A DNA stretch of 51,758 bases, taken from an uncultured Rhodobiaceae bacterium. Its GTDB lineage: Bacteria; Pseudomonadota; Alphaproteobacteria; Parvibaculales; Parvibaculaceae. Shown here piece by piece: positions 28,190 to 33,004 of the stretch. Where the stretch lies: NCBI GenBank assembly GCA_913057645.1, contig CAJXOU010000016.1, positions 1 to 51,758 on the forward strand. The letters are read 5' to 3'. The position numbers and the translations under genes are program-made. The notes under the pieces are model-generated. The model was given only the letters and a program-made list of their open reading frames with translations. It ran no database searches and had not been told where the DNA came from. Numbering within the stretch: the stretch's first letter is position 1; each line of letters opens with the position of its first letter.

Positions 28190-28522
28190 TCATTCGACAA
28201 TCGAGAGCGTCATGATCATGCCGGGATGAAATCGGCAATAAACCTCCATCTTTCCCGGCGTCACGAGGTAAATGCTCCCTTCCTCCCCCCGCGGAAGGTC
28301 GATGTCGAACGAACCGTCGCGCGCCGTGGCCGTGTGGCGGACGAGGTCCTTGTTTCGCCAACGCACAGTGTCACCGGCCTTCAGTTCGATGTGTGAAACG
28401 CCAAACTTCATCTTGTCGATATCGATGACGAGATACCGTCCTGCCGCGTTCGAAAAGGAGGGCCGGGCAAGAGCTCCACTCGCCACGGTTGCAAGGAAGG
28501 CCCGCCGGGAAAATCGCGACAT
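28190..28522 (-). CDS. Secreted cupredoxin (type I copper protein)
   Basis: Plastocyanin/azurin-like protein of 110 residues. An N-terminal twin-arginine-like signal (FSRRAFLATVASGALA) suggests Tat export of the folded protein. Likely type I copper ligands are H63, C96, H99 and M102 (RHTAT and YCRFHPGM). The domain is shorter than plastocyanin, as in the small cupredoxin_1-type proteins. ATG 28522 shares a base with the upstream DUF4142 stop (TGATG), so the two are coupled. A TTG one codon earlier is possible. Context in an ECF-sigma locus suggests an envelope redox or copper role, which is inference. Confidence 0.88.
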   Translation of the reverse strand: MSRFSRRAFLATVASGALARPSFSNAAGRYLVIDIDKMKFGVSHIELKAGDTVRWRNKDLVRHTATARDGSFDIDLPRGEEGSIYLVTPGKMEVYCRFHPGMIMTLSIVE

Positions 28523-29046
28523 CAATTCATCTCGTGAAGAAGATGTTCGGCGTGCAGCTGGTGCTCGCGGAACAACGAAAGACCGGTTTCGAGAAGAGCT
28601 TTCAGGTCGGCGTTCTGCGCGTTCGGAATCAGCAGATTCTGAAGCGCATCGTTGACGGTCTTGTGGAAAGTGACTTCGTTTTCGACGTAAGCGATGTCGA
28701 ATTCCCGCCCGGCAAGAGCCGCAAGCTGTTCTTCCCTTTCTCTGGCCTGACTTGAAAGTGCGGCACTCGTGTCGTTTTCCTGCGGGGCGACGTCGAGACG
28801 GTTCAGAAGGGCGAGCGCTTCTTCATTGACCGCGGCGTGGTCGCGCGCCATCAGTTCGGCGAATGCCAGAACCTGCGCATCTTCGGATTTCTCCAGCGCC
28901 AGGTTCGCTGCTGAAATGTCGATCTGTCCGGCGGTATATGCGATATGCGCAATTCTCGCATCGTTCAGCGGGGCAGCGGCGTCCTGCGCGAAGGCACCCG
29001 CACTCGCGAGGACGAAAGCGAGTGAGAGGAAAATTTTCTTCAGCAT
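28522..29046 (-). CDS. DUF4142 secreted protein
   Basis: Exported protein of 174 residues with a Sec signal peptide (MLKKIFLSLAFVLASAGAFAQ) and a mostly helical, ferritin-like DUF4142 domain (HIAYTAGQIDISAANLALEKS, FAELMARDHAAVNEEALALL, FHKTVNDALQNLLIPNAQN, REHQLHAEHLL). The biochemical function of DUF4142 is not established. Start ATG 29046 is chosen because it opens the signal peptide. The longer frame to 29094 has no signal. It heads the DUF4142-cupredoxin operon and is preceded by the sigma-regulon promoter motif at 29091-29122. Confidence 0.9.
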   Translation of the reverse strand: MLKKIFLSLAFVLASAGAFAQDAAAPLNDARIAHIAYTAGQIDISAANLALEKSEDAQVLAFAELMARDHAAVNEEALALLNRLDVAPQENDTSAALSSQAREREEQLAALAGREFDIAYVENEVTFHKTVNDALQNLLIPNAQNADLKALLETGLSLFREHQLHAEHLLHEMN

Positions 29047-29090
29047 GATGACTCTCCAGATGGGTAATCGGGCGCCTGTGCACCCGCTCG

Positions 29091-29122
29091 CCATTTGATG
29101 GGGGAGGAGCCGAAAGGTTCCC
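29091..29122 (-). promoter_or_regulatory. Putative ECF promoter of the DUF4142-cupredoxin operon
   Basis: Reading the minus strand: GGGAACCT (29122-29115), 14 bases, then CATCAAATGG (29100-29091). It matches the promoters in front of folE and of the ECF sigma gene at the same spacing, and lies 45 nt upstream of the DUF4142 start. It falls in the 78-bp gap after folE, so the operon has its own promoter. Confidence 0.72.
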
Positions 29123-29124
29123 GG

Positions 29125-29775
29125 TCAGAACTTCAGCGCATCCAGAACGTCCCGGCGCGCTGACCGCTTCGCGTACACACCTCGGAAGTCACGGGTTACC
29201 ATCGCGCCACCATGTTTTCTGACCCCGCGCGAACTCATGCATGCGTGACTTGCTTCGACAACCACCGCAACTCCGCGGGGTTTCAGAATCGTATCGATTG
29301 CGCCTGCGATTTCGGCGGTCAGCCGTTCTTGAATCTGGAGACGCCGCGCGAATGCGTCGACGAGACGGGCGAGTTTCGAAATACCGACAACGCGGGTGTC
29401 GGGCAGGTAGGCGACATGGGCGACGCCTTCGATGCGCGCCATGTGATGCTCGCAAACGGACTCGAATGAAATATCGCGCAGAACGACCAGGTCGGTATAA
29501 CCGGCAACCTCACCGAAGGTGCGCTCCAGGATGAGGGAAGGGGTCAGTTCATATCCGGCGAACCACTCTTCGTAGGCTCGTATCACGCGAGACGGCGTAT
29601 CCTGCAGGCCCTCGCGGTCCGGATCGTCGCCAGCCCAGTTTATCAGGGTTCGCACCGCGGCTTCCGCCTCGGCGCGGTTCACTCGCGTGGCTTGTTCCCT
29701 CCTTCTGACGGGACCGTTTGCCTGGATATGCAGTGCTTCTCCGGCATTTTTCTGGAGCTGGGCGTGAAACGTCAT
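29125..29775 (-). CDS. folE: GTP cyclohydrolase I (FolE type I)
   Basis: Zn-dependent enzyme of 216 residues converting GTP to dihydroneopterin triphosphate, the entry to tetrahydrofolate and other pterins. Zn ligands C108, H111 and C179 are present in [12 protein letters not shown] and [11 protein letters not shown], and the [10 protein letters not shown] motif is intact. Start ATG 29775 gives [10 protein letters not shown]. The longer frame to 30048 runs through the promoter region and is rejected. The gene is preceded by the same promoter motif as the sigma factor, so it is probably stress-inducible here rather than purely housekeeping. Confidence 0.95.
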
Positions 29776-29803
29776 GGGAATCCCTTTTTCTGAAGGCGGA
29801 ATT

Positions 29804-29836
29804 CCCATTTGATGAAGCGCGAGACACGAAGTTCCC
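29804..29836 (-). promoter_or_regulatory. Putative ECF promoter of folE
   Basis: On the minus strand GGGAACTT (29836-29829), 14 bases, then CATCAAATGGG (29814-29804), 28 nt upstream of the folE ATG. The eleven bases of the downstream box are identical to those before the divergent sigma gene, while the spacer sequence differs. That argues for functional conservation rather than a simple duplication. Confidence 0.75.
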
Positions 29837-29872
29837 GGATTTCTGGGCTTCGACAGCAAGGATGCCTCATGC

Positions 29873-29905
29873 GGGAACTTTAAGGCCGTTTCCGCATCAA
29901 ATGGG
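29873..29905 (+). promoter_or_regulatory. Putative autoregulated ECF promoter of the sigma factor gene
   Basis: GGGAACTT (29873-29880), 14 bases, then CATCAAATGGG (29895-29905), 17 nt before the sigma gene start and directly upstream of its GGGGAGGG ribosome-binding site. The GGAAC-type -35 box is typical of ECF sigma factors. The -10 half is not the usual CGTT/TCTGA type. Confidence 0.75.
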
Positions 29906-29922
29906 TTTAAGGGGAGGGCAGC

Positions 29923-30657
29923 TTGGCACCGAAAACCCGACGGGAACCCGATCCGGACTACGGTTCGATGGCCGAAGAAGATCTGGTGGCTCATGCGCGC
30001 AATGGCGCGCGCGGGGCGTTCGCTGCGATTATCCAGCGCTACAATCAACGGCTCTTCCGCCTGGCGCGCGGTATCGTTTCCGACGATACCGAGGCCGAGG
30101 ACGTCGTGCAGGAAAGCTATTGCAGGGGGTTTGCAGCGCTTTCGTCATTTCGGGGCGATGCGAGTCTTCTCACGTGGCTCTCGAGAATCGCGATCAACGA
30201 GGCGAGAGGGCGCCTCCGGCGGCGGCGCCATACCGTCGAACTTTCGGAAATTGAGATCGCGCAGGTGAACAACTCTCTCGTGATTCCGTTCAAGCCGGAT
30301 CAGTCACTGCGCAATCCGGAAAGTGACGCCGCCCGGGCGCAGATAAAGGCGCTGATAGAAAGAGCTGTCGATGATCTGCCTGACGGCTTCCGGCTCGTGT
30401 TCATCCTGCGCGACGTCCAGGAATGCTCGATCGAGGAAACGGCCGAGCTGTTGGGCTTGAAGCCGGAAACGGTGAAGACGCGGCTTCATCGTGCCCGTCA
30501 TCAGCTTCGCTCAGCGCTCGAGCGGGACTTGCATTCAGCAGTTCATGAAGCCTTTCCGTTTCTTGGTGCGCGCTGCGAAAGGATAAGCCAGAGGGTGCTG
30601 GCACGGCTGGCCGGGCTCTATGGTTGGGAAAGCCTGGAAGGGAGGGATGCGACGTAG
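29923..30657 (+). CDS. ECF-type RNA polymerase sigma factor with C-terminal extension
   Basis: Sigma-70 family factor of 244 residues. Region 2 is [18 protein letters not shown] to GRLRRRRHT with the [12 protein letters not shown] core. Region 4 is [15 protein letters not shown] to [15 protein letters not shown]. About 45 residues follow region 4 ([24 protein letters not shown]), longer than in minimal ECF factors. TTG 29923 is chosen because GGGGAGGG lies 4 nt upstream and ATG 29901 is out of frame. No anti-sigma gene is adjacent on either side. It is divergent from folE, and both carry the same promoter motif, so autoregulation is likely. Confidence 0.92.
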
Positions 30658-31012: not shown

Positions 31013-31855
31013 ATGACGCAGTTCAAGAAACTTCTTCTCGCCGGCACGGCGAGCTTCGCCCTGGTCGCCACGCCTGCGCTCGCCATTGACCCCGTGGGCG
31101 GTGCCTCGGGCGCTGTGTCGGGCGCGACCTCCGGTGCGGCCGACGTGACCGGTTCCGTCTCCGGCAACACGGTTTCCGGCGCGGCCGATGCCGCCACGGA
31201 CGCCGATGCCGGCGTCGGCACGTCGGGCGACGCCTCGGTCGATGCGGGCGCCTCCGGCTCGGCTGCCGGTGACGCTGGCGGTCTTTCCACCGGCGCCAAG
31301 GGTGGCGTCTCCGTTTCCGGCGAAGCCGACGGCCCGAGTGCCGCTGAAATCGAGAACAGCGTCGAAGGTGCGGCCAACGCCTCGAAGGAAGCGGTCGGTA
31401 ACATGACCGGCAAGGCGAAGAACGCCGCCGCCGGTGCTTCCGGCGCCGCGACGGGTGCGGCGGCTGGCGCCAGCGCCGATGGCAAGGGCGCCGTCAGCAG
31501 CGATACCGGCGAGGAAGAGCTTGATGAAGGCGCCTCGATGCGCGGCAATGTCGTGAACGAGACGGTCGCCCAGACGGATGTCGAAACGCTGGAGACCGAT
31601 GTGCCGGACGCTTCGGAGAATGTCCCGTCCGGTACGACGGCGGCTCCGACCGCTCCCGAGCTCGACCCGACGTCCAAGCTGACCGAGATGGGCTACACGG
31701 ATATCGAGCCTGTCGAGGGCGCCGCCGAGGCGTCCAACGAGACCACGTTCCGCGCCACCAATGCCGACGGCGAAGAGGTCGACGTCGTGGTGGATACGAC
31801 GACCGGCGCCGTCGTAAGCGAGCAGGAGCCGGCGGAGGCCGAGGAAGAGATGTAA
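31013..31855 (+). CDS. Secreted low-complexity protein with C-terminal PepSY-like module, paralogue A
   Basis: Exported protein of 280 residues. It has a Sec signal peptide (MTQFKKLLLAGTASFALV, cleavage after PALA at 24), then about 140 residues rich in Gly, Ala, Ser and Asp with repeated SGA/SGAAD units. An acidic segment follows, and the last 55 residues (LTEMGYTDIEPVEG, TFRATNADGEEVDVVVD, TTGAVVSEQ) are shared with the next two genes. That C-terminal module resembles PepSY/PepSY_2 domains. A strong GGAGG precedes ATG 31013 by 8 nt. The Gly/Ser/Asp-rich region could be disordered or Ca2+-responsive. The function is unknown. Confidence 0.82.
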   Translation: MTQFKKLLLAGTASFALVATPALAIDPVGGASGAVSGATSGAADVTGSVSGNTVSGAADAATDADAGVGTSGDASVDAGASGSAAGDAGGLSTGAKGGVSVSGEADGPSAAEIENSVEGAANASKEAVGNMTGKAKNAAAGASGAATGAAAGASADGKGAVSSDTGEEELDEGASMRGNVVNETVAQTDVETLETDVPDASENVPSGTTAAPTAPELDPTSKLTEMGYTDIEPVEGAAEASNETTFRATNADGEEVDVVVDTTTGAVVSEQEPAEAEEEM

Positions 31856-31892
31856 GAAGCCTCACACAGGCAATCGCTGTCGAGGGCGTGGA

Positions 31893-31922
31893 GCGCGGAA
31901 GCGTTCCGCGCCCTCTCCTTTT
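31893..31922 (+). terminator. Terminator after paralogue A
   Basis: GCGCGGAA and TTCCGCGC pair across a 3-base loop. Outer GAGGGCG (31882-31888) and the following CCCTC extend the structure, and CCTTTT follows. It separates the transcript of paralogue A from that of paralogue B. Confidence 0.65.
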
Positions 31923-31970
31923 GCGGTCCGCCATCCGCACGGCACATACAGGGCAATTTCGCGGCGCGTT

Positions 31971-31995
31971 GAACGGATACCGTGTTCATCCGTTC
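31971..31995. promoter_or_regulatory. 8-bp inverted repeat upstream of paralogue B
   Basis: GAACGGAT and ATCCGTTC are perfectly complementary across a 9-base spacer, 55 nt before the paralogue B start. The dyad is operator-like in size and location. I do not recognise a cognate regulator. Confidence 0.4.
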
Positions 31996-32049
31996 TTCAG
32001 ATACCCGGGGCATCGGGGCGTTGAAGACTTGTTCAGGAGGAACAACGCC

Positions 32050-32400
32050 ATGACTGACATCAGGAAAATTCTTCTCGCCGGCGCGGCCGGTATCGCCCTC
32101 ATGGCCGGCCCGGCGCTTGCCAACGATCCGGCGATCGAACAGGCGCCCGCGCAGGACATCCAGCCGGAAGGCGCGATGGAACTCGACAGCTCCGCGGACA
32201 TGGAAGCCGATGCGGATCTCGACTCGGTCGCGCAGCTCGAGGAACTCGGCTACACGGATGTCGAGCCGATCGAAGCCCAGGGCGACACAGCCGCGGAAGG
32301 CGAAGCGACCTTCAGCGCCACCAACCCGGACGGCGAGCGCGTGACCGTGCTCTTCGACACGGAAGCCGGCGCGGTGATCAGCGAGGACGCGGCGTACTGA
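32050..32400 (+). CDS. Small secreted PepSY-like protein, paralogue B
   Basis: Exported protein of 116 residues. Its signal peptide (MTDIRKILLAGAAGIALMAG, cleavage after PALA at 24) is closely similar to that of paralogue A. An acidic linker follows, then the shared module LEELGYTDVEPIEAQG, ATFSATNPDGERVTVLFD and EAGAVISE. AGGAGG at 32036-32041 serves ATG 32050. The longer frame from 31888 runs through the preceding terminator and is rejected. It is the minimal form of the trio. The function is unknown, and the PepSY resemblance suggests a periplasmic binding or inhibitor role, which is inference. Confidence 0.83.
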   Translation: MTDIRKILLAGAAGIALMAGPALANDPAIEQAPAQDIQPEGAMELDSSADMEADADLDSVAQLEELGYTDVEPIEAQGDTAAEGEATFSATNPDGERVTVLFDTEAGAVISEDAAY

Positions 32401-32427
32401 TCCATCGTTTGATGGAGGCCACGAAAG

Positions 32428-32455
32428 CGGCGCGGAAGTTTCGGCTTCCGCGCCG
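32428..32455 (+). terminator. Terminator after paralogue B
   Basis: CGGCGCGGAAG (32428-32438) and CTTCCGCGCCG (32445-32455) form a perfect 11-bp stem with a 6-base loop, 27 nt past the stop. It is followed by a T-rich stretch without a clean T-run. Confidence 0.7.
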
Positions 32456-32599
32456 TTATCTGTTTGCGAACACCTGCCCGCAAAACGTTGCTTTCAAATA
32501 TTTTTCCGGTAACGGCCTGTCTCGAAACGGAGCGCTTCGGCGCCTCGCGCGTTGTTACGGAGAGGGCTTCGGCAGGCACAGATTCTTGGAGGAATACTC

Positions 32600-33004
32600 A
32601 TGAAACAGGTCAGAAACATCGCACTCGCCGGCGCCGCCACGCTCGGGCTGATCGTCGCGCCCGTTGCGGCTCTTGCCGATGCCGTGGTCGTGACCGGCGC
32701 CGCGGATTCCGATACCGCGGCTGCGACCCATGTCGACCCGGCGACGGGCTCCGTCACCACGACGACGGTGACGACGACGACCATCGTGGGCGTCAATGCG
32801 GACATCGCGGACCCGATCGCCTGGCTCGAGGAAAAAGGCTATTCGAACGTCGAGCAGGTCCCCGGCGTGACGCTTGAAAGCCAGATGGCCTTCCATGCGG
32901 CGAACGGCATGGGCGAGCCCGTCGAGATCGTCATGGACAAGCAGACCGGCGAAGTCGTGCGCGAGACCTATCTGCGCAAGGTCGATACGCCGTCGAAGCA
33001 GTAA
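32600..33004 (+). CDS. Small secreted PepSY-like protein, paralogue C
   Basis: Exported protein of 134 residues. It has a signal peptide (MKQVRNIALAGAATLGLIV, cleavage near ALA at 26), a Thr/Val-rich segment (DPATGSVTTTTVTTTTIVG), and the shared C-terminal module in diverged form (LEEKGYSNVEQVPG, MAFHAANGMGEPVEIVMD, QTGEVVRE). GGAGG at 32588-32592 serves ATG 32600. The Thr run may be surface-exposed. It completes the tandem trio at 31.0-33.0 kb. The large divergence between copies suggests specialisation rather than recent duplication. Confidence 0.82.
   Translation: MKQVRNIALAGAATLGLIVAPVAALADAVVVTGAADSDTAAATHVDPATGSVTTTTVTTTTIVGVNADIADPIAWLEEKGYSNVEQVPGVTLESQMAFHAANGMGEPVEIVMDKQTGEVVRETYLRKVDTPSKQ

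Follow-up and report, generated by a model that had tools for sequence, protein, structure and literature searches.

A predicted compact ECF29 sigma regulon with a cupredoxin operon and a second folE in an uncultured Rhodobiaceae bacterium

In a 51,758-nucleotide (nt) stretch of contig CAJXOU010000016.1 from an uncultured Rhodobiaceae bacterium (assembly GCA_913057645.1; the whole stretch is hereafter the window), positions 28190-30657 hold a gene for a predicted extracytoplasmic function (ECF) sigma factor, a gene for GTP cyclohydrolase I (folE) and an operon encoding a DUF4142 protein and a cupredoxin, each unit headed by the same promoter-like motif. Which sigma factor reads these sites, and do the genes make up a regulon of their own? 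The locus is very probably a compact regulon of group ECF29, in which a sigma factor of the RpoE8 group, named after RpoE8 of Sinorhizobium meliloti, would read three promoters including its own.

Three matching motif copies in one locus

The pattern GGGAACYT-N14-CATCAAATGG occurs in three exact copies, all oriented toward the gene that each precedes: at 29091-29122 (minus strand) ahead of the DUF4142-cupredoxin operon, at 29805-29836 (minus) ahead of folE and at 29873-29904 (plus) ahead of the sigma gene. Each is a predicted ECF29-type promoter, the last implying putative autoregulation. Counted from the motif's first base, the assumed start codons lie 76 nt away for DUF4142 (ATG 29046), 61 nt for folE (ATG 29775) and 50 nt for the sigma gene (TTG 29923). 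A sequence-only reading of the window had described the same three copies, correctly as to their number, match and targets and as to the position of the first, and had placed the other two at 29804-29836 and 29873-29905, each off by one base. In the genome as searched (3,752,067 bases, 193 contigs), the exact pattern was found nowhere else; the reversed pattern had 0 matches genome-wide, as did dinucleotide shuffles of the window. The same three sites alone were returned when the spacer was varied by one base with the -10 box relaxed to CATCMAA, and again when up to one mismatch to GGGAACNT-N14-CATCNAAT was allowed across the 3.75 Mb, so that the earlier description of the locus as self-contained holds for this genome. 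What computation shows is the motif itself, how rare it is, the constant distance between its boxes and, as described below, its return before the same genes; from this we infer that the local sigma factor would be the reader of all three sites.

Recurrence of the motif in related loci

Forty-five sigma loci, the window's included, were compared, a motif being counted when it lay within 300 nt upstream of a gene. It preceded DUF4142 in 17 of 18 cases (the lone exception, at locus L006, is a gene of 26% identity), folE in 5 of 8 and the sigma gene in 21 of 45, and it was found upstream of none of the 16 cupredoxin genes, the second of the operon; overall, 673,068 strand-bases contained 52 matches to the motif and a single one to the reversed pattern. 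A phylum sample, in which 27 of 397 genomes matched the NCBIfam model NF008888 at E 1e-50 or better, three of them already known, supplied 24 further loci, many of them from rhizobial relatives and thus not independent. The strict motif was present in 19 of these, and it preceded DUF4142 in 17 of 17 (reversed control 0), bearing out the expectation of the sequence-only reading that the same intergenic regions of related genomes would carry it. The three copies in the window have identical boxes within a span of 815 bases, which could be the product of chance or of recent copying of functionless regulatory DNA; their spacers differ, however, shuffles gave no match and the motif stands before orthologous genes in distant genera. 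This explanation is already contradicted because the motif is conserved in front of orthologues, and we regard its probability as close to negligible.

The distance between the boxes is similarly constrained. Among 81 matches in 69 loci, with gaps of 12-20 bases allowed, 73 had N16, six N17 and two N19, and gaps of 12-15, 18 and 20 had no match; the 77 distinct sites with a gap of 16 or 17 lay ahead of DUF4142 (32), the sigma gene (30), folE (6) or other genes (9). Across the 71 distinct N16 sites, the fifth base of the -10 box was most often C (49), with T (13), A (6) and G (3) less common; the family consensus is GGGAACCTTT-N12-CATCCAAT, and the A for C of the window's -10 is a minority form. 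The closing ATGG of the window's motif is only partly general among related loci: of the same 71 sites, 54 have T at position 30, 42 have G at position 31 and 27 have G at position 32. As the sequence-only reading had supposed, the boxes behave as a promoter: their spacing is conserved, they stand before the leading gene of every unit, they recur before orthologues and they are nearly confined to the sigma locus. The motif might instead be a bipartite operator of a non-sigma regulator, yet the boxes are asymmetric, include the classical ECF -35 core, keep a spacing of 16-17 bases and point toward the first gene, and in S. meliloti a start maps downstream of the same motif (PMC6180224, in the passages available); an operator is very improbable.

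Locality was assessed in 26 chosen genomes out of 35 sigma-positive ones. In the nine left out (G032, G036, G394, G541, G617, G619, G668, G701 and G763), the stretches read around the sigma gene lacked the strict N16 motif, so that the count describes motif-bearing genomes. GGGAAC-N16-CATCNAA had 48 sites in the chosen genomes; 41 were no more than 3 kb from the sigma gene, and of the seven elsewhere five were CATCGAA; one chosen genome (G067) had no match, and the reversed form occurred once in the 26. Among 387 genomes sampled from the class, with sigma-positive defined as E 1e-60 or better, three of the six sigma-positive genomes had the longer motif versus 3 of the remaining 381, with one match in the reversed control, and setting aside the window's own genome left two of five versus the same 3 of 381 (Fisher p 0.0013). 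An order-wide search, which covered one family only, added nothing.

Another ECF sigma factor, for example of the general-stress EcfG type, might read the three promoters, leaving the local sigma gene as just one target. The genome has nine TIGR02937 matches over the cut-off, so other ECF-type sigma factors exist; overexpression of RpoE8 in S. meliloti left its neighbour uninduced; and a gene also named rpoE8 in Azospirillum brasilense, which may or may not belong with ECF29, is activated by a different ECF sigma factor, RpoE6, as well as by itself, according to the part of the source available. Across genomes, however, the motif follows the window-type sigma gene and is rare in those of the class sample that have no sigma match. 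EcfG shares the GGAAC -35 box, and its -10 is CGTT, unlike the CATC of the window. We consider a second sigma factor unlikely as the reader, though less so than an operator. The sequence-only reading had set the -10 against the CGTT of EcfG and called it unusual; that comparison was with the wrong sigma group, and the box is a one-base variant of the ECF29 -10 GCATCCAA published in PMC6180224, as given in the passages available.

Motif copies elsewhere stood in other contexts. Three Microvirga loci have the motif ahead of a gene pair (L007 at 2923, L004 at 2868 and L019 at 2910, all plus); the pair in L007 encodes a TTHB210-like and a plastocyanin-type protein, and with DUF4142 replaced there and a plastocyanin-type protein present, a copper protein therefore recurs. 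The motif also precedes a truncated globin gene in Phyllobacterium (L070, 1751, plus), and Methylocystis has two N17 copies (L067, 1648 and 1940, plus) in the vicinity of a hypothetical gene, where DUF488 and NnrS genes are close; in these two contexts a link to nitrosative stress is possible. In Pseudoxanthomonas (L005, 3018, minus), a copy lies upstream of a frame that resembles a Rieske/FAD-reductase in translation.

The sigma factor and its relatives

The predicted sigma gene (29923-30657, plus) encodes 244 amino acids from TTG 29923 and passes the cut-offs of Sigma70_r2 (PF04542) and Sigma70_r4_2 (PF08281), the ECF sigma2 and sigma4 domains. Against NF008888/PRK11922 (cut-off 204), its product scores 279.1 bits and S. 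meliloti RpoE8, which we took from pSymB via its published promoter sequence, 324.5 bits. The two proteins are 43% identical, and the matches of four other ECF sigma factors of the same genome are 24-33% identical to the window's; by its resemblance to RpoE8, the predicted sigma factor is placed in group ECF29. Three other groups were considered and rejected. The published ECF26 motif, GGAATA/GT, does not fit. EcfG (ECF15), with CGTT at -10 and NepR/PhyR as neighbours, is at odds with CATC and with sigma neighbours that a Pfam scan gave as folE, DUF4142, a cupredoxin and one protein without a Pfam match. A CorE-like type (ECF44/ECF238) has a cysteine-rich C-terminal domain and a CxC in the linker, versus one invariant cysteine here.

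In the passages available of the S. meliloti study (mSphere 2018, PMC6180224), RpoE8 is placed in ECF29 with a -35 of GGGAAC and a -10 of GCATCCAA, one start was mapped upstream of rpoE8 by 5' rapid amplification of cDNA ends together with this motif, and a match is also noted before SMb20593; the authors remark that no ECF29 sigma factor had been studied in detail and that its control was a mystery. The window thus resembles rpoE8 (SMb20592)-SMb20593-amcY in its NCBIfam model, its -35 and the type of its -10, and the window's -10, CATCAAAT, is one base off (A instead of C) with identical -35 and spacing. In S. meliloti 1021, the products of the genes next to rpoE8 are homologous to the DUF4142 protein (53% identity) and the cupredoxin (39%) of the window, and another strain's record annotates the genes adjacent to rpoE8 as DUF4142 and cupredoxin; as in the window, they adjoin the sigma gene, each unit is headed by the motif and no anti-sigma factor was recognised. 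In contrast to S. meliloti, where the 7-kb stretch read held no folE match, the window has divergent units and a folE with its own motif. A locus of Mesorhizobium sp. B2-1-8 (L058) shares folE, sigma, DUF4142 and cupredoxin with the window, with the motif before the first three, but is plasmid-borne and has its four genes in one direction.

Beyond sigma4, the protein continues for ~45 residues (about 200-244) as a C-terminal extension. Of the 25 initial loci, two with partial matches (L025 and L028) were left out before alignment, and a short frame (L022) and three distant members (L023, L026 and L027) before the cysteine count and motif table. One cysteine, in the context F-x-F-x-G-x-R-C (Cys218 in the window, codon 30574-30576, plus), was present in 45 of 45 related sigma factors, representing 31 clusters at 85%; no other was invariant, two columns having Cys in four and six of the 45, and the same context was found in 24 of 24 further sigma factors. 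In an outgroup of seven sequences, one sigma factor of the same genome (L081) aligns a cysteine at this column, lacking the context and having another extension. The five neighbouring proteins scanned contained no anti-sigma domain, a distant anti-sigma factor being possible. A 2022 review counts ECF29 among sigma factors with regulatory extensions of unstudied mechanism, and describes the copper-dependent CorE of Myxococcus xanthus (former ECF44), which has no anti-sigma factor and, as in the window, a cysteine-holding C-terminal extension and copper proteins in view, in the parts available (PMC8999054); unlike CorE, the window's sigma group has one invariant cysteine only.

Several observations weigh against a regulon of this kind. 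No motif lies directly upstream of 24 of the 45 sigma genes, seven of which sit downstream in the order DUF4142-cupredoxin-sigma; no motif of the given form was found in the fetched stretch of ten Rhizobium/Mesorhizobium loci (L009 included) or of two loci of the window's own genus (L042 and L043); and the strict motif was missing from 5 of the 24 further loci. folE stands at ten sigma loci, six with the strict motif (the window, L005 of Pseudoxanthomonas, L039 and L040 of the window's genus, L058 and L107) and four that depart from it by eye: L041, also of the window's genus (CGTC), the Mesorhizobium plasmid locus L060 (AGGAAC; L058 is likewise on a Mesorhizobium plasmid), L006 of Siccirubricoccus (CGGAAC, N17, CATCCGA) and L111 (CATCTG). 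The structure model of the sigma factor (mean predicted local distance difference test score 77.8; C-terminal helices at 181-210 and 216-232) is too weak, at a predicted template modelling score of 0.42, to place Cys218. In the S. meliloti study, as far as its available passages go, no target was detected on 126-fold overexpression of rpoE8, with no rise in its motif-bearing neighbour SMb20593, and deletion of rpoE8-SMb20593 raised amcY 2.6- to 3.2-fold in nodules (PMC6180224). We read these results as those of a sigma factor that is inactive without an activating signal, which is probably needed; they can equally be taken to mean no dependence on the sigma factor. Next to two of the motif-less sigma genes, Ferritin_2 genes lie downstream (L009, 4827-5690, plus; L042, 4714-5259, plus).

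Under the ECF29 regulon that we favour, the sigma factor with core RNA polymerase would read GGGAACCTTT-N12-CATC(C/A/T)AAT at three promoters in the genome, its own (positive autoregulation), that of the periplasmic DUF4142-cupredoxin operon and that of the second GTP cyclohydrolase I. Tentatively, and with the odds against it, there may be no separate anti-sigma factor, the extension with its single invariant cysteine restraining the sigma factor or sensing the signal, for which metal, thiol-oxidising or nitrosative stress are candidates; once signalled, the cell would produce new FolE along with the periplasmic copper protein and its partner. A slightly more doubtful proposal is that ECF29 sigma factors are one-component stress switches with no anti-sigma factor, the cysteine responding directly to a nitrosative, metal or thiol signal, and that the three-promoter regulon links a periplasmic copper protein and the DUF4142 protein that partners it to an extra cytosolic GTP cyclohydrolase, which would stand in for a stress-sensitive housekeeping enzyme. 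The promoter type is already known; judged by the literature consulted, what is new is the folE branch, the cysteine signature and the member in the window. Such a locus would give an orphan sigma group a regulon definition in which folE recurs as a third member and the invariant cysteine is a candidate sensor.

The second folE and the neighbouring genes

The window's folE (29125-29775, minus) is one of two PF01227 genes in the genome, scoring 225 bits versus 247 bits for the copy on contig 131. The two products are 49% identical, and the window's FolE is 54-69% identical to FolE at the nine other sigma loci, which suggests, without proving, that FolE of sigma loci may form a separate lineage; the L006 protein is 57% identical to the housekeeping copy and 58% to the window's, hardly nearer to one than to the other. 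In the alignment, the window's FolE has CEHH and HxCM, which we take to be its metal-ligand motifs. Cupriavidus metallidurans has a spare copy, folE_IB2, under Zur control, according to the part of the source available. If the regulon holds, a sigma-controlled second FolE would join such known metal-controlled spare copies. A tie between folE and an ECF29 sigma factor was not found among titles and passages of the literature, a search that left supplements and the 2021 ECF reclassification uncovered, so that an earlier mention is possible. Nor did the literature search return a paper pairing DUF4142 with an ECF sigma factor.

The DUF4142 protein (28522-29046, minus; 174 amino acids; PF13628, E 3.5e-32) has an N-terminus that looks by eye like a signal peptide, and solved structures gave it no match at E 0.01. 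The ATG of the cupredoxin gene (28522) shares its A with the DUF4142 stop codon, and the amicyanin-like product of this second gene (28190-28522, minus; 110 amino acids; PF13473 and PF00127) matches amicyanin chains in PDB (best E 7.9e-07) and shows by eye a twin-arginine-like start, SRRAFLA, and a ligand set of His and Cys-x2-His-x2-Met.

Downstream of the sigma gene, three successive genes for small, secreted-looking proteins occupy 31013-33004 (plus; ~31013-31852, 32061-32397 and 32600-33001), and the genome search with up to one mismatch found no ECF29 motif ahead of them. Their sole Pfam match, PepSY_2, is below threshold and occurs in two of the three, and all three share a C-terminal block with the core GY(T/S)(D/N)(I/V)E.
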